Source: a virus
DNA: 32,850 nt
Reading direction: 5' to 3' (one strand)
Virus record (IMG/VR): IMGVR_UViG_3300037843_000015
Span: 1-32,850 of that record
This document shows, piece after piece, positions 4,435-28,905 of the stretch. A model generated the notes under the pieces. The model was not told where the DNA came from. It searched no databases and saw nothing but the letters and a program-made list of their open reading frames with translations. How positions within the stretch are numbered: the first letter of the stretch is position 1; each line of letters begins with the position of its first letter. A program made the translations under genes and the position numbers.

Positions 4435-6476
4435 TGGAGAATCAGAAGCCAACCGCACCGCCGTCAAGTAGCAGTGATCGTGTCCGCCGTTACCGCGAAA
4501 GGAAACGCAAAGGTAACGAACTTGCAACGCAGCGAATCAGCACATCTGCGATTCGTCTGGCACTTGAGGAACCAGTTGAACGTGTCCATTATCCCATCCA
4601 GATCCCCGTGATACCGAAGGGAGTAGTTCCACACGGGGTCATAGCACAAGTGGCAATGGACTCCGAGCCAGCCTACGAGTGCGCACGGCTGGCAATGGAC
4701 GCTGGGCCTCAGTTCGGCTCACAGCTTTATGCGTACAGCAATGTCGAAGGCTTCCCCGGCTATCCGTATCTGATGCTCTTGGCGTTGCGCTCAGAATACC
4801 GCAACATGGCAACGGCGCTTGCCACAGAATTGACGCGCAAGTGGATTAAATTCAACAGTACAGATACCGAGGACGAATCGACAAAAACGAAGATTACTGA
4901 GATTGAGCAGGCGTTCACTGCGCTTGGAATCCAGGGCATCATCCGCAAGGCGGCCGAGCATGATGCACTCTACGGAACGGGGCAGATTCTCATCAACATC
5001 AAGGGAGCGGACCTAAAGACGCCGCTCGTCATCGACCCGCGGACGGTCAAGAAAGACAGCCTGATTGGATTCAAGAACGTCGATCCGATATGGACCACGC
5101 CGCTGATGTACAACTCACTGACGCCCTCCAGCCCGAACTTCTACAGGCCGGATAGCTGGTGGGTCATGGGTGAGCATTGGGACGCATCGCGGATAATCGT
5201 CATTGTCACCCGCGAAGTGCCTGACATATTCAAGCCCGCATTCAACTTCTCTGGTATGAGCCTTTCACAACTCGCAGAGCCTTATGTAAATAATTGGCTG
5301 CGGACCAGGCAGAGCGTTTCAGACCTCATCAACAACTTCTCTATTGTGGTTCTCAAGACGGCGATGGACCAGGTACTCACGGGCGGGGATGATGGCTCAA
5401 ACCTGTTCTCCCGCATCAAGTTGTTCACGGCCACGCGGAGCAACAAGGGAGTGATGGCTCTGGACAAGGACCGTGAAGAGCTTGAGCAGATCGCCGTTCC
5501 CTTGGGCGGGTTGCATGAACTCCAGTCCCAGGCGCTTGAGCAGCTTTGCGTCGTATCGAGAGAGCCTGCAACCGTTCTAACAGGCATTACGCCTTCAGGC
5601 TTCGGCAACGTGGCCGAAGGTGAGGTTCGTATCTGGTACGACTACATACATGCCCAGCAAGAGGCACACTGGCGCAATGCGATTGATAAGATGTTCAAGA
5701 TCATCCAGATGTCAATGTACGGGGAGATTGACCCTGAGATCACGTTTGAATTTGTCCCGCTCTACGAAATGACGGAAGAGCAGGAATCAACCATCCGGGT
5801 CAACGACAGCATCCGGGCCGGGAACCTGATTGACAGGGGCGTGATCGATGCGCAAGAAGAGCGCGAGCGGCTGGCGCGTGATCCTGAGTCGGGGTACCAG
5901 GGCATTGATATTTCTAAGGAGATTGCGCCGCCGGACGAGGAAGAAGAGAGCGCAAACCTGGCACGAGGGACAGATTCGGCGCTCGGATATGACGCTGAAT
6001 TTGTGGAGAGTGAGCATCCTAGAGACGATGATGGGAAGTTTGGGAGCGGTGGAGGTGCAAAGACCGCCCCATCGCGTAAGACGGCGCATGAGTCTGTTAT
6101 GAAGGTAATAAAAGACCTTCGCGGACAAGGTAAATCGAAAGAGGAAATTGAATCTGATCCTACATATAAAATAGCCAAAGAGGAATCCAATAAAGCCGCT
6201 GGATTCTATAGTGGGGCGCGGGCGGATTTTGTGGGAACATCTAAACGGCGCTCAGAAGCTCTAAATATCGAACGCAACTTTGGAAATGGGTATACGGAGT
6301 CAGTGGGAGATTTTATTGAGGATTCAGTAGAAAAAGGATACCGGGTAACGATGACAAAAAGCGGAAAACCGGCATTTGTAAACAGCAAAATGGAAGGATA
6401 CGGGGCTAAGGAATTGGGTTCTGTCGGATGGGAATACGCAGTGCATTTATGCGATTCACTAAAGGATACAGCATGA
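4434..6476 (+). CDS. Portal protein (DUF1073 family) with an unrecognised C-terminal extension
   Basis: The portal is the dodecameric ring through which DNA enters and leaves the head. Residues ~75-520 match the DUF1073 portal type: ELTRKWIKFNSTDTE, ALYGTGQILINIKG, a long helical stem region, and SREPATVLTGITPSGFGNVAEGE, followed by the YYD/IHAQQE-type wing. Relatives are about 450-520 aa; this protein is 680 aa. After an acidic linker (PPDEEEESANLARGT), the motif FVESEHPRDDDGKFGSGGG introduces about 140 extra residues with no family I recognise and with more A/T-rich codons than the rest. The start ATG 4434 overlaps the previous stop; GTG 4425 is less likely because GGAG lies directly against it. 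Confidence 0.9.
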   Translation: MENQKPTAPPSSSSDRVRRYRERKRKGNELATQRISTSAIRLALEEPVERVHYPIQIPVIPKGVVPHGVIAQVAMDSEPAYECARLAMDAGPQFGSQLYAYSNVEGFPGYPYLMLLALRSEYRNMATALATELTRKWIKFNSTDTEDESTKTKITEIEQAFTALGIQGIIRKAAEHDALYGTGQILINIKGADLKTPLVIDPRTVKKDSLIGFKNVDPIWTTPLMYNSLTPSSPNFYRPDSWWVMGEHWDASRIIVIVTREVPDIFKPAFNFSGMSLSQLAEPYVNNWLRTRQSVSDLINNFSIVVLKTAMDQVLTGGDDGSNLFSRIKLFTATRSNKGVMALDKDREELEQIAVPLGGLHELQSQALEQLCVVSREPATVLTGITPSGFGNVAEGEVRIWYDYIHAQQEAHWRNAIDKMFKIIQMSMYGEIDPEITFEFVPLYEMTEEQESTIRVNDSIRAGNLIDRGVIDAQEERERLARDPESGYQGIDISKEIAPPDEEEESANLARGTDSALGYDAEFVESEHPRDDDGKFGSGGGAKTAPSRKTAHESVMKVIKDLRGQGKSKEEIESDPTYKIAKEESNKAAGFYSGARADFVGTSKRRSEALNIERNFGNGYTESVGDFIEDSVEKGYRVTMTKSGKPAFVNSKMEGYGAKELGSVGWEYAVHLCDSLKDTA

Positions 6477-6744: not shown

Positions 6745-7016
6745 CATCAGTTTCTCCGGTGTTCACAGAGCAGGAAGTATTTGCGGAGCAGGTGATTGCT
6801 TTAGATCAGCCGGAATATCTGCCAATCATCGTAGCTCGCATCCAAACAGACAACTTTAAGGCAAGCGTTACCAGGTATCGTTTTTCCGATGAAGAGCGGC
6901 AGCAAATAGCCGCTGGGGCGGATATCCTTGTCTATCAGCCACATCTTGGTGCGATTATGCCTCTCGCTTTTGCTTTGGCGCATCCCGGCCAATATCCCAC
7001 TATCGAGGGAGAATGA
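6741..7016 (+). CDS. Small conserved phage protein next to the gpF-like gene (91 aa)
   Basis: GAAGGTG lies just before the ATG, and there are ATGA overlaps at both ends. The middle, RYRFSDEERQQIAAGADILVYQ, resembles a small family I associate with phage head regions (a hydrophobic strand, then 'R-F-S/T-x-E-E-R-x-x-I-x-x-G-x-D-I'). Its function is unknown. Position suggests expression with the minor head protein that follows. Confidence 0.65.
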   Translation: MTSVSPVFTEQEVFAEQVIALDQPEYLPIIVARIQTDNFKASVTRYRFSDEERQQIAAGADILVYQPHLGAIMPLAFALAHPGQYPTIEGE

Positions 7017-7804
7017 ACAAGCCCCGCATAGCCCGCGCAGTGTGGCCCAACGCTGGCACTCGACAGCGGTATCAGCGACGCATGACCGCTCTCATAAGGG
7101 AGATGGCCGATTCTGTGGAGTATTGGCTACAGGCCCAGCGCAAGGCCGCGCCGCCGGTCCTAGCAACCGACTCAACGCCAGCAGAGCAGATGCAATTCGA
7201 GTTCAATAAGCTGGCGGAACGCTGGCAGGGAAAGTTTGACGATATGGCTCCCAAAGTGGCCGATTCATTCCTCAAGAACCAATTCAGGGGAACCAGCGCG
7301 GCTATGCGGATGGCGCTACGCGAGGCGGGCTGGTCTATCGAGTTCACCATGACCCCCGCCATGCGCGATGCGTTTGAGGCGTCCCTTGCGGAGAATGTGG
7401 GGTTAATCAAGTCGATACCCTCTCAGTATTTGCAGGAGGTTGAGGGCATCGTGATGCGCAACTATGCGGCGGGGCGCGATCTCAAGTCGATGGCGGCGGA
7501 GATTCGGGCGCGTTACCACGTCGCGGCGAATCGGGCTGTGCTGATCAGCCGGGACCAGTCAAACAAAGCCTCAGCGGTAGTGCAGCGGGCGCGTCAGAAC
7601 GAGTTGGGAATCACCGAGGCGATCTGGCTCCACTCCCATGCGGGAAAGACCCCCAGGCCGACTCACGTCGCCATGAACGGGAAGCGGTACGATGTGTCGA
7701 AGGGGATGTGGGATTCGGCGGTACAGAAGTTCATCTGGCCGGGTGAGCTTATTTCTTGCCGTTGCCAGGGCCGATCTGTTCTGCCTTGGACGCCCTCGGA
7801 ATAG
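7013..7804 (+). CDS. Minor head protein, phage Mu gpF-like
   Basis: Mu gpF-like proteins sit in the head near the portal and are needed for head maturation and DNA delivery. The N-terminal ~150 residues are helical. The C-terminus carries the family signature: RAVLISRDQSNKASAVV, then WLHSHAGKTPRPTHVAMNG and WPGELISCRCQGRSVLPW, with His and Cys residues likely to bind metal. The length of 263 aa is in the usual range. Start ATG 7013 overlaps the previous stop, with a GAGGGA site upstream. Its last 56 bases are overlapped on the other strand by the end of the leftward cassette (7749-8075). Confidence 0.88.
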   Translation: MNKPRIARAVWPNAGTRQRYQRRMTALIREMADSVEYWLQAQRKAAPPVLATDSTPAEQMQFEFNKLAERWQGKFDDMAPKVADSFLKNQFRGTSAAMRMALREAGWSIEFTMTPAMRDAFEASLAENVGLIKSIPSQYLQEVEGIVMRNYAAGRDLKSMAAEIRARYHVAANRAVLISRDQSNKASAVVQRARQNELGITEAIWLHSHAGKTPRPTHVAMNGKRYDVSKGMWDSAVQKFIWPGELISCRCQGRSVLPWTPSE

Positions 7805-8075
7805 CCGCCCCTTCGGGCATAGGGATGTCCAATTTTATGCCGAGAATACTTTTGTTGGATGTGGACGCCTGTAGAAACTTCTCCGTCTCCAGGTCGTGAG
7901 CAGTAAGCGCGTCGTTGTAGCATTCGGCCCCAAACGCATCGCGCCATACATTAAGAAGATCGACAGCGTGAGCAAGTTTCATCTCTAGTTCGTCCACCAG
8001 AGCTGAATGAACGCACATTCCATCAGGTTTAAGAAATATGTTGCCATTGATAATGTCGAACCTTGGTAATGTCAT
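7749..8075 (-). CDS. Hypothetical protein, last gene of the leftward cassette (108 aa)
   Basis: Start ATG 8075 follows GGGAGG with 7-base spacing and overlaps the upstream stop by 4 bases (ATGA). It begins MTLPRFDIINGNIFLKPDG. The middle is a long amphipathic helix (VDELEMKLAHAVDLLNVW), and the tail is glycine- and lysine-rich (EQIGPGNGKK). The family is not recognised. The 3' end is antisense to the last 56 bases of the gpF-like gene, so both proteins must tolerate shared DNA. No terminator is visible after it, so leftward transcription may run into the gpF-like gene. Confidence 0.65.
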   Translation of the reverse strand: MTLPRFDIINGNIFLKPDGMCVHSALVDELEMKLAHAVDLLNVWRDAFGAECYNDALTAHDLETEKFLQASTSNKSILGIKLDIPMPEGAAIPRASKAEQIGPGNGKK

Positions 8076-8236
8076 TTGTGCCTCCCACTCTCACACAAAT
8101 TCTCGTGCATCGCAAAGTTGCGTGTTCCTTCGATTAGCAAGTGGCATTTGCTACATCTAAACACCATCTCTTCACTTGTAATCGCTTGAAGGGTTGGCAT
8201 CGCTGGTCCGTTCCACCACAATCTCAATAAATTCAT
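8072..8236 (-). CDS. Small zinc-finger-like protein (54 aa)
   Basis: Start ATG 8236 has a full AGGAGG site 8 bases upstream and shares one base with the previous stop (TAATG). The C-terminal half reads FRCSKCHLLIEG, then NFAMHENLCESGRHK. The C-x2-C pair with a later His and Cys fits a single zinc-binding finger of about 25 residues. Small phage proteins of this type may bind nucleic acid or a host protein; no target can be named. It is coupled to genes on both sides in the leftward cassette. Confidence 0.65.
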   Translation of the reverse strand: MNLLRLWWNGPAMPTLQAITSEEMVFRCSKCHLLIEGTRNFAMHENLCESGRHK

Positions 8237-8313
8237 TATTTGTTCCTCCTGAGCGCCCACCATGCAAGCAGGGCGAGTGCGACGAATACCGCGTTGGCGA
8301 AAAGGTTAGTCAT
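8236..8313 (-). CDS. Tiny single-pass membrane protein (25 aa)
   Basis: The open frame has only 25 codons: MTNLFANAVFVALALLAW then WALRRNK. It is one hydrophobic helix of about 17 residues with a basic C-terminus. The length and the positive-inside rule fit a single-pass inner-membrane protein with its C-terminus in the cytoplasm. Its start overlaps the upstream stop by 8 bases, and its end forms a TAATG junction with the next gene. Its coding sequence also supplies the AGGAGG ribosome site of that gene. Small phage membrane proteins of this kind include superinfection-exclusion and holin-like factors; which applies here is unknown. Confidence 0.55.
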   Translation of the reverse strand: MTNLFANAVFVALALLAWWALRRNK

Positions 8314-8488
8314 GGTGCGTGATTACCGGCTTCGACACGTTGCGCTTAGAAAGCACAGCATCAACAAAGTTGTAAACATTTTCCAGCAACTCCTTCAGTG
8401 TGTCTTTTTCTGGTTTGGCGCACCACGCTGAGAAGATTTCGCGGGTGATCTCGATTGCCAGCGTGTCGCGCAGTTCATCGTGTTGCAT
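8306..8488 (-). CDS. Small helical hypothetical protein (60 aa)
   Basis: ATG 8488 follows AAGGAG with 6-base spacing. The product begins MQHDELRDTLAIEITREIF and continues as helix (LKELLENVYNFVDAVLSKR). It resembles the many short 'EI...AW...A..A..FVDAML' phage proteins of unknown function. It overlaps the preceding gene by 14 bases and the next by 8, in keeping with one translated cassette. Confidence 0.65.
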   Translation of the reverse strand: MQHDELRDTLAIEITREIFSAWCAKPEKDTLKELLENVYNFVDAVLSKRNVSKPVITHHD

Positions 8489-8624
8489 TGGAGTCTCCTT
8501 TGCGTTTCTGTCTCGCCCGCCACTCCCGCAGATACCTGGACTGGCAAATCGGGCAGCGTTGGCGCTTCTTGCTCGTTTTGAGCAGGTGTCCGTTGATACA
8601 GCGAACTCGACGTAATGGTGGCAT
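8475..8624 (-). CDS. Zinc-ribbon-like protein, first gene of the leftward cassette (49 aa)
   Basis: The product starts MPPLRRVRCINGHLLKTS and continues with RCPICQSRYLREWRARQKRKG. Cys-x3-His and CPIC form a likely four-ligand zinc ribbon on a very basic protein, as in HNH-associated or nucleic-acid-binding ribbons, but too short for a nuclease domain. ATG 8624 has no ribosome site. Instead a near-consensus promoter ends 6 bases before it, so the message is probably leaderless. An upstream in-frame start at 8693 would have to be read through the promoter and is rejected. Confidence 0.65.
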   Translation of the reverse strand: MPPLRRVRCINGHLLKTSKKRQRCPICQSRYLREWRARQKRKGDSNATR

Positions 8625-8630
8625 GACCAA

Positions 8631-8660
8631 ACAATACACGTCTTGCCTTTCGATTGTCAA
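8631..8660 (-). promoter_or_regulatory. Strong candidate promoter of the leftward cassette, apparently leaderless
   Basis: On the minus strand there is a perfect TTGACA (8660-8655), 18 bases, then TATTGT (8636-8631; 4 of 6 matches). The -10 box ends 6 bases before ATG 8624, so transcription should begin at or next to the start codon. The distance from TTGACA to the ATG is exactly 30 bases, the same as at the promoter of the ribbon-helix-helix gene (30398-30426). Confidence 0.65.
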
Positions 8661-8694
8661 GAGCGCTATTGCATTCCTGTTTTCATAGTGCAAT

Positions 8695-8708
8695 TCTCGA
8701 AATCGAGA
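8695..8708. promoter_or_regulatory. Dyad TCTCGA-AA-TCGAGA, candidate operator
   Basis: This is a perfect 6-bp inverted repeat around AA. It lies between the leftward promoter (-35 at 8660) and the rightward protease start at 8714. The size and position fit a repressor or activator site for either gene. It is too tight to form an RNA hairpin. Confidence 0.35.
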
Positions 8709-8713
8709 CAGCT

Positions 8714-10027
8714 ATGGAGATCGCTTGCGACTCGAAATTGCTAAACCGGCGATACGACGCGGACGGACGCTTGCATATTCTGCGGACGCCAATCTCCAAG
8801 GCGACAGTCAATCCCTATTACGGGCGCGAGATTCCAGACTCGGACAAGCTGGGCCTGGAGCCGGAGCAAGTGTACTACCTGCTACGCGATCCGGGCGAAC
8901 TTGCGAAAGCCGCTCCGTCTTTTGCTCGGAATCAATTGATGTTCGTTCACACGGCAGTCAGCGCGGACGATCCCAAACAGGGGAGTATCGCGGGGACAAT
9001 CGGCTCAGATGTGGAGTTTCAGGCTCCATACCTGATTGCGGACCTTTGCATTTGGGATGTGGAAGCAATCGCCGGAGTGGAAACAGACACCGTGCGGGAG
9101 CTTTCATCCTCGTATCGTTACCGGGCGGACATGACGCCGGGGATGTACGAGGGGCAGCGGTACGACGGGGTGATGCGCGATATTCAAGGCAATCACGTTG
9201 CGTTGGTTAAATCAGGCCGCGCCGGATCGGATGTGATGGCGGCGGACAACGAATTGGAGAAGAAGATGGAAACGAAATTCGGCAAAGCTCTTTACGCAAT
9301 TCTCTGTGCTGCATCGCCCAAGCTGGCAGCAGACTCCGCTCTCAAGCCTCTGGTGATCGGCCTGACGCGCAAACAGTGCGACCTGCGGGCGCTCGAACCC
9401 AAGCTCCTGGCCATGGACTCCGAGCTTCGCAAGCCTGAGACGCTGGCCGCGATGCAAGCTGCCAAGGACGCGGAATCCGAAGAGGAAACCGAGGCCGAGA
9501 AGAAGGCTCGCGAGGAGAATGAAGCCAAGGACAAGAAGGCGAAGGACGGCGAATCGAAAGACGGAAAGGCCAAAGACGCCGAAGAGGTGTCAGCCGAAGA
9601 GAAAAAGAAGCTCGAAGAGCGTGAAAAGCGCCGCGCCGCCGATTCCGAAGAGGAGTCTGAGGAAGAGCGCAAGGAACGCCTGGAAAAACGCGCCAAGGAC
9701 AAGAAAGCCAAGGATTGCAGCGCCGAGGATGGCACGAAAAAGGCAATGGATGAGTTCAAGGCCGATCTTCGCGCCTCCGACGAAGCCCGCCGAGCAGTCC
9801 GCACGGTCGTGGGCGATGTTCTGGCCCAGGATTCCGCCGCCGACATTTACTGCTTTGCGCTCGACCAGATGAAGGTTGATCACAAGGATGTGGTTGGCGT
9901 TCCGGCTCTGCGGGCGCTCTTCAATCTGGCGCAACAGGCGTCCAAGCCTGCGCCGCGTGTGGCGTTCGATGCGGTTTCAGTGGAAGAGAAGTTCACCGGC
10001 GCAGGCCGTCAAATTCAGGTGATGTGA
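8714..10027 (+). CDS. Prohead protease of the DUF2213 family fused to a scaffold-like region
   Basis: This protein probably directs capsid assembly and then cleaves itself and other head proteins. Residues 1-~180 match DUF2213: SKATVNPYYGREIP near the start, RELSSSYRYRADMTPGMYEG with the likely catalytic Ser, and MRDIQGNHVALVKSGRAG with the likely His. Residues ~245-350 are an almost uninterrupted run of Lys, Glu, Asp and Ala, a probable coiled-coil scaffold. The C-terminal ~80 residues are less charged and may bind the capsid. The length is 437 aa from ATG 8714. In-frame TTG 8654 would extend it through the leftward promoter and is less likely. A DUF2213 protease just before decoration and capsid genes is the normal order. 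Confidence 0.85.
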   Translation: MEIACDSKLLNRRYDADGRLHILRTPISKATVNPYYGREIPDSDKLGLEPEQVYYLLRDPGELAKAAPSFARNQLMFVHTAVSADDPKQGSIAGTIGSDVEFQAPYLIADLCIWDVEAIAGVETDTVRELSSSYRYRADMTPGMYEGQRYDGVMRDIQGNHVALVKSGRAGSDVMAADNELEKKMETKFGKALYAILCAASPKLAADSALKPLVIGLTRKQCDLRALEPKLLAMDSELRKPETLAAMQAAKDAESEEETEAEKKAREENEAKDKKAKDGESKDGKAKDAEEVSAEEKKKLEEREKRRAADSEEESEEERKERLEKRAKDKKAKDCSAEDGTKKAMDEFKADLRASDEARRAVRTVVGDVLAQDSAADIYCFALDQMKVDHKDVVGVPALRALFNLAQQASKPAPRVAFDAVSVEEKFTGAGRQIQVM

Positions 10028-24921: not shown

Positions 24922-27900
24922 ATGAAGCGAATTTTAACGATTTCGATTCTTGCACTGGCTGCGATCTTTGCGCCGATGGTTCATTCACAGTCCAGCGGGA
25001 GCACGCCTCCGCCGCCGCCATACTGTACATCTGCGAATGCGGGCGCTCTCTACACGAACACCGGCACGAGTCCAGCGACGGTGTACACGTGCAGTTACTA
25101 CAACCTGGCTTGGCAATGGGTGGTAAATCCGAGCTATGGCGGGCTGGTTTTGTACCCGACTGTGCCGTCTACCTGCTCAGGGGCACTGCCGGTATTCTTA
25201 GCTGGCTGGCCGACGAATACGCAGATGTATGTGTGCGTAAATGGCGTTCCTGTTCCGCAAGCGATAGGACCGCCCGGACCAGTAGGCCCATCAGGACCGC
25301 CCCTCAACTGGCGCGGTAATTGGGAAGCATATACGCCGTATGCGCGAAATGACGGATTCATAGAGGCTGGCATCGGTTACGTGGTCATCACATCCTATAC
25401 ATCGGGAGCAACTTTTGGATCGCTTGATACTGCGAATAGCGTCCAGATTGCGACAGGATGTGCGGGTGGCGTGTGTCAGATTCTAGAGGGCGGCACGGGC
25501 GCGACTACAGCAGGTGCGGCTTTGTCGAATCTGGGTGGAACTCCAGCTATTGTAAATCCAGCGGTGTGCTATACAGGATGGCCATCTTCTTCTCCATTGT
25601 ACGGAAATACACCGCCCGCATGGTGCGGAGCCTCTGGCCAGACAGCAGACGTTTACATCCAAGCCGCCTGCAATCAACTGCCATCCGCTGGCGGCACAAT
25701 CGACTTGCGCGGGTTTGGGGCGACGACCCAGACGCTTGCCAATTCGATCACCGGCTGTATGTCGCCAACAAAAGCGGTCTTGTTTCTGGTAGACAATTCG
25801 ACGTATTGGCAGATCACAGAATCAGATGGGGGCACCATGTTCCCGTTGGATAATAATTCTGGTGTTGTAGGGGAGGGTTTGGGCCAGTGCTCTCCCAGTT
25901 ATGCGAACCCGCGTGGGTTTGCATTGACCGGAGTGGCGAACGTAACATCTATTTTCGGCCCCGCGCACACTGACGGATCACAGGAGGATTTAGCGGTTAA
26001 GGGTCTGTGTATGCATGGCTACGCTCGCGAGTATGGCGTTACTGCCTACACCACTGTATCTGGAGTATCGACTACGCTGACAATGGTAGGCCCGGCTCCG
26101 AGCGCGGGACAGCAAGTGACATTCTATTTTTCCGCCGGACCAACTTATCTGAGCGGTCAAACGCTTACAGTTGCCTCAAGCAATCCTTCTCTTAATCAGT
26201 ACACCGTGAATACCGCAGCCTCTACGGGCAGCGGGTCAGCAACGGGATACAGCACCTTCTTCGCTATAGTTACCAAAGGACTGATTTATCTTGGCGGCAT
26301 CGGCGGCACGAATACCGCAATCGTGGATAACAACGTCGATCAGTGCAACACCGCCTGTCTGTGGATTGAAAACTCTGGCGGGTCGATGAGTGTTCATGGC
26401 AATGATTTCAGCGCCACGGAGGGAGACTATTGGGTAACCGCAAGCCCCATTGTGCTCTATGCTTACGGCGGCACTGGAGTTCAATTGTCTGATATTTACA
26501 TCTTCAACAACAACATCGAGCACGCCAACGGCGGCTTGCTCTACCCTGAATTGAATATTCATACAGACGGGTCAGGAGCGGGATTCGGTAGAATCAACGT
26601 CCACGATAACTATTTTGAGCGCAACAGTCCCAGTTACTTTGGCAGCGTTCCGAGCGTGAACGGAATTTACCTTGAGAATTGCAGGGATTGCAAGTTTGAA
26701 AATCTCGCTGCCGGGGGAGGGTCTGGTGGATCTGGTGGAACTGACTTCATCCACGTAGTTCAAACTGCGACCAACCTGGGAGGGCGGACGAACAATGTGC
26801 AGTTTGAGAATATCGCAAACGGAGATGGGTTCGGCTCAGCATTTACGAACACCTTGAATGATACCGTGGACGGAGTGACATTAAGTGCTATATCTAATTA
26901 CGATATTACAGACTATACGATACTGCCGGGGTACTGGCAGTATAACGTTCCTCCAAATACCGTGTACGTTGCGAACGGGCCAGACATCGTAGCCGGGGCG
27001 GGGCTGTTTTCGGGAACCTGCAACCCCTGCACCTACACGGGGTGGAATCAATATCTCAGCGGCCTGACTTCCGGGCAAGTAACATACTCGTTAGTTGCCG
27101 ACGCACCTCCTGTGTCTCCGTGGAACAGCGCGGGCGGAACTTCCTCGCAGGATATTCTCATCGGGGCAAATAGCTCTCCTATCTATTCCGCAGCGGGCAT
27201 CCAGCAATCATCAACGCCATACGCGCAAGTGGCTGGAAACACGTATATAGTTTCAGTTGCCGCGAAACTTATCAGCGGGACTAACCTACAGCTTCTTTTG
27301 TTTGTAGGCAACGGGTCAACAAGCAATTGCCAAGGAAGCGGGTCTACTATCTTTTCCATCACATCGTCGTGGGCATATTACAATTTCGTTTGCACGGCTA
27401 TACTAACTGAAAATGTCTTAATCGCTCCGCAAGTCGGAACCGTGGCAGTAAGCGCAACCGGAGAGGTGCGGGTTGCGAACATCCAGATGTTCGCTCCCAA
27501 TGGAGGCCAGCAGAACTCTATTCCGATTTGGGTAGGGACTACGGGCAATAAGCTGGGCAACGCGACAGCGGCACAGTTAAATTCCTCTCTCTATGTGGCT
27601 GGCGGAGGCACGGCGCAAGCGCAGACAGTTACGCTGACTCCCGCGCCTGGGTCACTCACAAACGGCATGGTGGTACGCTGGTTGCCACTAGCTGCCAATA
27701 CGCTGACCGCGCCAACGCTGGCAGTGAACGGTTTGGCCGCAACCACGATCACAAAGTGTGGCACGGTAGCACTTGTAGCAAATGATTTGATTACGACTGC
27801 GATTGCGACGGTCGTGTATGATGGGACATACTTTGAATTACAGAATCCGCAGGCGGTGGCGTGCGGAAGCATTAGCTATCCCGGCGCTGGTGTTCCTGTA

Positions 27901-28905
27901 TCCACTGGCTCGGCGTGGGGAATGTCGCTTACTAAATATGGTAGTGCGGCGGGCGTAGCAACGTCATCCGATCCTGGTACAACGGCAGAAGTGCCGATGG
28001 TGGCAGATGGTACACACGGACAGAAACCGAGCGCATCTGGAGCATTGGGGACAGGTGCATTTGCTCCGGCTTATACTCTTCCGGCAACGGTTGTGCAGAC
28101 GAATCAGGCAAACACATATACAACGGGTTTACAGGACTTTTCCGCAGTAGCTCAGGTTAAAATGCCTGTGACAGCAAATTATGCAAGCGCGGCTCAGGGT
28201 GAGCTTGGATATGACTCAACCAATCTAAATTGGCACGTTTGGCAGAATGGGGCCGATAACTTCATGGCAGTATTCCCTGCCGGATCGCCACCAACCAGCG
28301 GCCACGTAGCAGGATTCTTGAAGTCTACAAATTCATGGTCATTGCAGGATTTGGGCGCTATGCCATCTGCTCTACCGCCTAATGGCAGCGCGAGCGGAGA
28401 TTTAAGTGGAACCTATCCGGGGCCAACAGTGGCAAAGGTAAACGGGAATACTCCCGGCGCTTCTTGCACGAATCAGGTAGTAACTGCCATCAACTCGTCC
28501 GCGCAAGGGACTTGTACTTCCTTAGCCACTTCCTATCTGCCCACTGCTCAAGTGACGCGCACAGTGGTCGTGACAGATGTAACTCCTGTGATTGGCGATG
28601 ATCTTTTAATCACCGTCCTAGACTCGGCGACAGCGATACAACTAACAAGATTCTCTTGTGGAGTCACCGGCTCAACTTCGGTAATTACAAATCTGGTGAG
28701 CGGCGGAAACTCGCTGATCTCCGATATGACAGCCACAGCCGGAACGGTCAATCAAGTCGTAGTTACGAGTTGGGTCAGCGGCTCATGCAGTTCTCAAACA
28801 ACTTACTGCCCTGTTGCGGCTCACACACCAGTTACCCTTCACATCGGCACAATCTCAGGAACCCCAACGTCGTTAAACTGTGCAGTGGATTACACGGTGA
28901 ACTAA
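24922..28905 (+). CDS. Large tailspike/fibre (1327 aa) with signal peptide, beta-helix and binding modules
   Basis: Residues 1-22 form a clear Sec-type signal peptide: MKRILTISILALAAIFAPMV then HSQ. A short collagen-like run (GPPGPVGPSGPP) lies at ~115-127, followed by a sugar-binding-like NWRGNWEAYTPYARNDGFIE unit and the fibre motif GGTGATTAGAALSNLGG. Residues ~230-650 have the short Asn/Gly-rich turns of a right-handed parallel beta-helix (NNNIEHANGGLLYPE, INVHDNYFERN, IYLENCRDCKFENL), as in polysaccharide-degrading tailspikes. A jelly-roll-like region follows (~690-860), and the C-terminus has GDLSGTYPGPTVAKVNG repeats and several Cys pairs. An export signal is unusual for a virion protein. 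AAGGAGATAC precedes the ATG. Confidence 0.75.
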   Translation: MKRILTISILALAAIFAPMVHSQSSGSTPPPPPYCTSANAGALYTNTGTSPATVYTCSYYNLAWQWVVNPSYGGLVLYPTVPSTCSGALPVFLAGWPTNTQMYVCVNGVPVPQAIGPPGPVGPSGPPLNWRGNWEAYTPYARNDGFIEAGIGYVVITSYTSGATFGSLDTANSVQIATGCAGGVCQILEGGTGATTAGAALSNLGGTPAIVNPAVCYTGWPSSSPLYGNTPPAWCGASGQTADVYIQAACNQLPSAGGTIDLRGFGATTQTLANSITGCMSPTKAVLFLVDNSTYWQITESDGGTMFPLDNNSGVVGEGLGQCSPSYANPRGFALTGVANVTSIFGPAHTDGSQEDLAVKGLCMHGYAREYGVTAYTTVSGVSTTLTMVGPAPSAGQQVTFYFSAGPTYLSGQTLTVASSNPSLNQYTVNTAASTGSGSATGYSTFFAIVTKGLIYLGGIGGTNTAIVDNNVDQCNTACLWIENSGGSMSVHGNDFSATEGDYWVTASPIVLYAYGGTGVQLSDIYIFNNNIEHANGGLLYPELNIHTDGSGAGFGRINVHDNYFERNSPSYFGSVPSVNGIYLENCRDCKFENLAAGGGSGGSGGTDFIHVVQTATNLGGRTNNVQFENIANGDGFGSAFTNTLNDTVDGVTLSAISNYDITDYTILPGYWQYNVPPNTVYVANGPDIVAGAGLFSGTCNPCTYTGWNQYLSGLTSGQVTYSLVADAPPVSPWNSAGGTSSQDILIGANSSPIYSAAGIQQSSTPYAQVAGNTYIVSVAAKLISGTNLQLLLFVGNGSTSNCQGSGSTIFSITSSWAYYNFVCTAILTENVLIAPQVGTVAVSATGEVRVANIQMFAPNGGQQNSIPIWVGTTGNKLGNATAAQLNSSLYVAGGGTAQAQTVTLTPAPGSLTNGMVVRWLPLAANTLTAPTLAVNGLAATTITKCGTVALVANDLITTAIATVVYDGTYFELQNPQAVACGSISYPGAGVPVSTGSAWGMSLTKYGSAAGVATSSDPGTTAEVPMVADGTHGQKPSASGALGTGAFAPAYTLPATVVQTNQANTYTTGLQDFSAVAQVKMPVTANYASAAQGELGYDSTNLNWHVWQNGADNFMAVFPAGSPPTSGHVAGFLKSTNSWSLQDLGAMPSALPPNGSASGDLSGTYPGPTVAKVNGNTPGASCTNQVVTAINSSAQGTCTSLATSYLPTAQVTRTVVVTDVTPVIGDDLLITVLDSATAIQLTRFSCGVTGSTSVITNLVSGGNSLISDMTATAGTVNQVVVTSWVSGSCSSQTTYCPVAAHTPVTLHIGTISGTPTSLNCAVDYTVN

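Follow-up and report, generated by a model that had tools for sequence, protein, structure and literature searches.

The interval between a gpF-like head morphogenesis gene and a DUF2213 prohead protease gene in a 32,850-bp viral contig (hereafter the window) is read here as an autonomous antisense accessory, or moron, operon and a site of gene exchange, an interpretation to which we assign a probability of roughly two in three. Five leftward frames (A-E), overlapping head to tail, occupy positions 7749-8660 amid these two rightward virion-assembly genes (Table 1). Morons are extra phage cassettes with their own promoter in late regions, and a sequence-only reading of this DNA had called the five genes such a cassette. 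This call is supported by junctions whose flanks are conserved but whose length ranges over 192-2,064 bp, by single-gene insertions and deletions between near-identical phages, and by a near-empty junction in most proteobacterial prophages. The locus fits the description of a recurrently re-stocked antisense operon better than that of a single, fixed cassette of five genes.

Table 1. Features of the gpF-DUF2213 interval of the window and its flanking genes.
Feature	Coordinates	Strand	Properties
Left flank, gpF-like head morphogenesis gene	7013-7804	+	PF04233, E 2e-10; phrog_324, E 6e-71
Gene E, 108 aa	7749-8075	-	Residues 1-80 conserved; last 56 nt antisense to gpF gene
Gene D, 54 aa, C-x2-C...H...C zinc-finger-like	8072-8236	-	Shine-Dalgarno AGGAGG
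Gene/element C, 25 aa, single-span membrane peptide	8236-8313	-	DNA block of ~80 bp with sharp borders
Gene B, 60 aa	8306-8488	-	Shine-Dalgarno AGGAG
Gene A, 49 aa, CHCC zinc finger and basic helix	8475-8624	-	Leader gene, conserved
3' half of A, DNA segment of ~51 bp	8514-8564	-	93-96% identical in some junctions
Sigma-70-type promoter, TTGACA-18-TATTGT, 10/12	8631-8660	-	Predicted from sequence
Inverted repeat, TTGCA-N15-TGCAA	8669-8693		Upstream of the leftward promoter; sole exact copy in the window
Right flank, DUF2213 prohead protease gene	8714-10027	+	Pfam PF09979, E 1e-45

All five frames were recovered at the sizes first reported for them, with overlaps of 14 nt (A/B), 8 nt (B/C), 1 nt (C/D), and 4 nt (D/E), and the opposite-strand overlap of the last gene with the gpF-like gene and the near-consensus promoter were likewise confirmed. 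The claim of strong ribosome sites for most of the genes holds for B, D, and E, but C has a weak Shine-Dalgarno sequence and is coupled to B through their overlap, and A has none. The frames and promoter lie within the limits originally drawn, and the unit extends past them to the upstream inverted repeat. The right-flank gene also matches a head maturation protease family (phrog_2229, E 5e-114). With a chain scoring devised in this analysis as a screen, to which the comparative evidence below is superior, the leftward frames with their ribosome sites scored 45.6 and the rightward strand 24.6; the leftward chain exceeded all 300 dinucleotide-preserving shuffles (mean 17.9, sd 6.0, maximum 38.5). 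The GC content of the cassette is 50.0%, near the 10th percentile of the window, against a window mean of 54.3%. Scans with Pfam, PHROGs, NCBIfam, and PADLOC matched none of B, C, D, or E to a family of known function. At the left end of the window, a 169-aa minus-strand frame contains tandem repeats of the xVYGxA type (20-300 and 647-1215), and the related contig G001 has a frame with a different repeat (L388 9359-10483).

Relatives of the locus were collected using the flanking genes as queries, which returned about 80 and 41 viral-contig loci that were collapsed to 42 distinct junctions (numbered with the prefix L). The close relatives are all metagenomic contigs, many of them short. Across the 42 junctions, in which gpF is 70-92% identical, the interval between the two flanking genes spans 192 to 2,064 bp. 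The minimal junctions (192-201 bp) hold A alone, and the content behind A varies between phages, including E with a different partner gene, zinc-finger proteins, and secreted-looking proteins of 114-183 aa. The latter recur with a signal peptide-like start (L015 3109-3660, L024 5790-6134, and L041 2619-2978, minus strand) and gave no confident family assignment. The relatives therefore do not carry the same frames everywhere with random substitutions: content differs, and the proteins are constrained where relatives exist. A first genome scan for hosts was empty and a second gave only relatives of 29-55% identity. Most proteobacterial prophages that carry distant relatives of gpF have the two flanking genes almost adjoining, with gaps mostly of 5-22 bp; others carry HNH or rightward genes in the junction. 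Among cultured phages, the junction is empty in Amjad_SA, contains an HNH gene in phiXaf18, four rightward genes (the first an Arc-like regulator) in Orisa03, and leftward genes in Aeromonas phages 4_D05 and vB_AsaM-56. This variety of states indicates that the junction is a general insertion point, and that an antisense layout either emerged or was retained in more than one lineage. Ten related contigs, each possibly incomplete, yielded no integrase, and the classic moron role of a prophage-expressed conversion gene is therefore unsupported here.

The most persistent component of the operon is its leader gene. A had been labeled zinc-ribbon-like but is instead a CHCC finger with a basic helix, in which the ligands C9, H13, C24, and C27 (C-x3-H...C-x2-C) are invariant. 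By profile search, an A-family frame is present at 40 of the 42 distinct junctions, leftward every time; of the other two, one has a ribbon-helix-helix-type (RHH) gene first (L059) and one a leftward endonuclease VII (EndoVII) gene (L109), and in L028 an RHH gene comes first and A is reduced to a remnant. A was counted in this way rather than from cargo cluster 0 because automatic clustering had fused A with E via a shared read-through tail from the end of gpF. In a search of 2.9 million viral contigs, 61 of 61 confirmed A relatives adjoin this gpF/DUF2213 pair, and neither A nor E had a match among cultured phage records. Pooled over 16 members, A has a dS of 1.35, a dN of 0.45, and a dN/dS of 0.33. 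An AlphaFold2 (AF2) model of A consists of a hairpin plus a helix (pLDDT 71); Foldseek found no match for this model, and searches of solved structures with A gave only marginal zinc proteins. The sequence and model of A are suggestive of a DNA-binding regulator. In the related contig G003, a second A-family gene (~366-595; L047 109-318, minus strand; hmm E 1e-13) lies upstream of the terminase genes; a dyad, TACGCA-GAG-TGCGTA, sits on its -10 box, and a similar dyad occurs at the next promoter downstream.

The promoter architecture in front of A is conserved as well. In the window, only 6 nt separate the end of the -10 box from the ATG of A. This accounts for the lack of a Shine-Dalgarno sequence, and the first message is thus probably leaderless. 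The same 6-nt spacing was found by script in 25 of the 42 distinct junctions and applies to three more in which the ATG of A is 6 nt away and the script had picked an earlier in-frame GTG. The 6-nt linkers themselves vary, with 13 kinds present, and the spacing is kept where an RHH protein replaces A as the first gene (L028 and L059). About 32 of the 42 junctions have the upstream inverted-repeat motif at this position. When all viral contigs were scanned with the promoter pattern, the matches listed were mostly unrelated. Of 25 distinct promoters from relatives, about 10 have an operator-like dyad between the -35 and -10 boxes, significant in about seven (shuffle p-value ≤ 0.015) and suggestive in three more; L004 retains such a dyad with different bases, and L059 has a different, perfect 10-bp dyad in its core promoter. 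These dyads, together with the one on the -10 box in G003, favor autoregulation. We consider the odds that A regulates its own promoter to be about even overall, and the case is weakest in the window itself, where no dyad in the core promoter reaches significance (shuffle p-value 0.46).

Coding by the remaining frames, claimed for all five, is supported by comparison to different degrees. B is identical in L035 and L082 and 53% identical in L006 (pS 0.61, pN 0.35). E, compared with six relatives that all sit at this same locus, has a pS of about 0.8 and a pN of 0.22-0.28; these relatives were reached via the flanking genes, a single-sequence search with E having returned no match. An AF2 model of E (pLDDT 54) was too uncertain for a structure search. 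Judged from these Nei-Gojobori counts, A, B, and E are proteins under constraint, whereas C is conserved mainly as DNA and no relatives of D were found. The case for coding by D accordingly relies on its frame, its ribosome site, and a zinc-finger hit of marginal significance (DUF7128, E 9e-4, short of the curated cut-off), and D could be a recent arrival or non-functional.

These patterns of selection bear on a different reading of the locus, namely that it is a homing-endonuclease site at which A is the zinc-finger remnant of an HNH or EndoVII protein and the cassette is selfish-gene debris without phage function. As with free-standing homing endonucleases (HNH/EndoVII/GIY-YIG), insertion at the same junction is seen in several relatives: nuclease-type cargo comprises an HNH-AP2 gene in L050, an endonuclease-like gene in L028, and the leftward EndoVII gene of L109, and HNH genes occupy this junction in phiXaf18, distant phages, and prophages. 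A-family members also match HNH PHROGs weakly (best E 0.0024). However, A showed no significant match to two such endonucleases from this site when their profiles were compared, and Pfam and PHROGs revealed no nuclease catalytic domain in A-E. Debris, moreover, would not keep what is seen here, namely protein-level selection on A, B, and E and a conserved promoter spacing and predicted leaderless design. We therefore regard this account of the cassette as unlikely, though homing endonucleases may explain the origin of the site.

Element C is present in 17 of the 42 junctions, at 82-91% DNA identity amid changing neighbors. Its synonymous sites are conserved too (pS 0.06-0.35), and its final codons carry the Shine-Dalgarno sequence of the next gene, D. 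Because of this synonymous conservation and the sharp borders of the block with unrelated neighbors, C is a DNA-level unit at least in part. Two copies of C flank one gene in L024 (6131-6208 and 6415-6492), an arrangement resembling a small cassette array, and the distal copy has an in-frame stop.

The predicted product of C, a small single-span membrane peptide with a basic tail, would also suit a toxin-antitoxin or superinfection-exclusion module in which A (or the RHH protein) is the antitoxin or regulator and C or a neighbor the toxin or exclusion peptide. The overlapping, coupled genes and the combination of an RHH gene with an endonuclease-like gene in L028 fit such a module, and there is phage precedent, as phage Fc02 carries small exclusion genes on opposing strands (PMC9936078). 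Yet C is missing from 25 of the 42 junctions where A stays, and A is alone in the minimal junctions, which excludes an obligate pair; the window genes, moreover, matched no toxin-antitoxin family in the Pfam, PHROGs, NCBIfam, and PADLOC scans. This makes a module of this type improbable. It is considerably less probable still that the locus specifies a regulatory antisense RNA, with a leftward transcript that dampens gpF or protease expression and frames that are incidental. No leftward terminator-like site was found in a consensus scan of 7600-8800, so that, given the 56-nt E/gpF overlap, the transcript could run antisense into gpF, but E, A, and B are under protein-level selection, and the gene content turns over completely while the promoter remains. 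That the genes encode virion or assembly accessory proteins placed in the head module by chance is scarcely credible, for although they adjoin head genes, near which small accessory proteins such as decoration proteins are known (PMC4378225), they lie on the opposite strand behind their own housekeeping-type promoter and show extreme turnover within one head type.

Turnover at the locus is seen in pairs of related phages with and without an insert, the clearest of which is L009 and L010. These two share an identical 362 bp that covers the promoter and the whole of A, and a distal 248 bp that is 99% identical. Between these, L009 has an extra 1,134 bp lying between two copies of a 31-bp direct repeat that is single in L010, the matching site without insert. 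The insert encodes DpdA-like and QueD proteins (5480-6461, minus strand). Other pairs (L022/L042, L056/L057, L046/L050, and L012/L021) differ by 186, ~370, or ~300 bp, and their border repeats are short or imperfect. The window and L035 have A, B, and the start of C in common at 96.5% identity, with divergence beginning inside C. A gpF tree covering the 42 junctions requires at least six changes in the presence of C, at least six in that of the secreted protein, and at least four in that of E. The ~51-bp segment in the 3' half of A remains nearly identical in some junctions although the neighbors differ between them, and this part of the gene is likely to be a recombination hub. One relative encodes an Erf-like annealing protein (phrog_2324, E 2e-31), and Rad52-like recombinases, an Erf included, efficiently recombine short, diverged DNA (PMC3945230); a phage annealing recombinase probably assists these exchanges.

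In the mechanism that we propose, a housekeeping-type promoter opposed to the late operon would drive leaderless A, and the genes after A would be translationally coupled through their 1-14-nt overlaps. Host RNA polymerase, without phage factors, would turn the operon on early in infection, and convergent late transcription would later oppose it. A would bind DNA and restrain its own promoter, in the manner of Aca proteins, which limit their own promoter in anti-CRISPR operons. The cargo behind A would be gained, lost, and swapped singly by recombination at short shared DNA blocks, for which the promoter spacer, the 3' half of A, element C, and the end of gpF are candidates. The variable proteins would most likely target host defenses or competing phages. 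That the window's own five genes act against the host or a rival phage, as was first suggested, is plausible by analogy, with functional support lying solely in the cargo of relatives, such as DpdA/QueD. The QueD assignment is firm (PF01242, PTPS, E 6e-24), and the DpdA-like protein was assigned from 29-34% identity to phage proteins annotated so; this cargo was seen in one relative lineage only. DNA modification with 7-deazaguanine by systems that include DpdA shields phage DNA from restriction (PMC6884629).

A close parallel is with the acr-aca loci of Mu-like Pseudomonas phages, such as acrF1-aca1 of JBD30, which likewise combine small variable genes with a conserved small DNA-binding-type gene and have their own promoter. 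The JBD30 genes are inserted among the head genes, directly preceding the one for the head maturation protease. The core promoters of acr-aca loci contain inverted repeats (PMC9410906). The JBD30 locus differs in that it runs with the late genes, whereas that of the window runs against them; its neighbor on the other side is gp34, here gpF; and its aca gene encodes a winged helix-turn-helix (HTH) protein and follows the acr gene, whereas A encodes a CHCC finger and usually comes first. Scans of the tested window genes with Pfam, PHROGs, NCBIfam, and PADLOC named no Acr homolog. By analogy, then, the locus may work like acr-aca, while lacking a known Acr, running antisense, and having in place of an HTH-type Aca the CHCC finger of A or, in L028 and L059, an RHH protein.

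Lambdoid and Mu-like morons and regions of genomic plasticity (PMC4378225) also consist of extra self-expressed genes that are present or absent between conserved genes, but those morons are usually single genes, whereas here the promoter and leader are fixed, the cargo is re-stocked, and the antisense strand is used. We apply the name moron to the way of working and not as strict membership; the main features are present, without a detected terminator. The anti-phage hotspots of P2 and P4 (PMC9122126) are similarly small, high-turnover loci between two conserved phage genes, but the genes here are small (mostly 25-180 aa) and one leader gene persists; PADLOC detected no known defense system in the genes tested. 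The cultured Aeromonas phages vB_AsaM-56 and 4_D05 have small leftward genes in the gpF-DUF2213 interval, among them that of AsaM-56 gp54, a zinc-finger protein of 42 aa whose C-terminus is basic. These sequences are unrelated to those of the window, and as the A-family model does not recognize gp54, the resemblance is one of design only. In the vB_AsaM-56 record (NC_019527), leftward gp56 (25238-27973, minus strand) overlaps a rightward DUF2213 match (25301-26503) and is probably a mis-annotation.

The most productive route to anti-CRISPRs and other anti-defense genes has been through accessory loci linked to a conserved marker gene. We tentatively suggest, as a possibility that we hold to be doubtful, that the A family is a new, non-HTH class of associated regulator, a ~45-aa CHCC zinc-finger autorepressor with a leaderless message that marks antisense counter-defense operons, and that C is a docking block allowing in-register cassette exchange through its upstream stop-start overlap and downstream Shine-Dalgarno sequence. 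If this is true, the neighbors of A-family genes could be mined for new anti-defense proteins. With A as a new marker and a promoter architecture that is fixed, the locus offers dozens of small, unclassified proteins from a group of uncultured phages known from metagenomes alone, and the paired sequences with and without an insert reveal how phages acquire such genes. The same design is visible in cultured Aeromonas phages, where, as far as we have found, it is undescribed. A moron, on this evidence, can take the form of a standing antisense operon whose contents are exchangeable.
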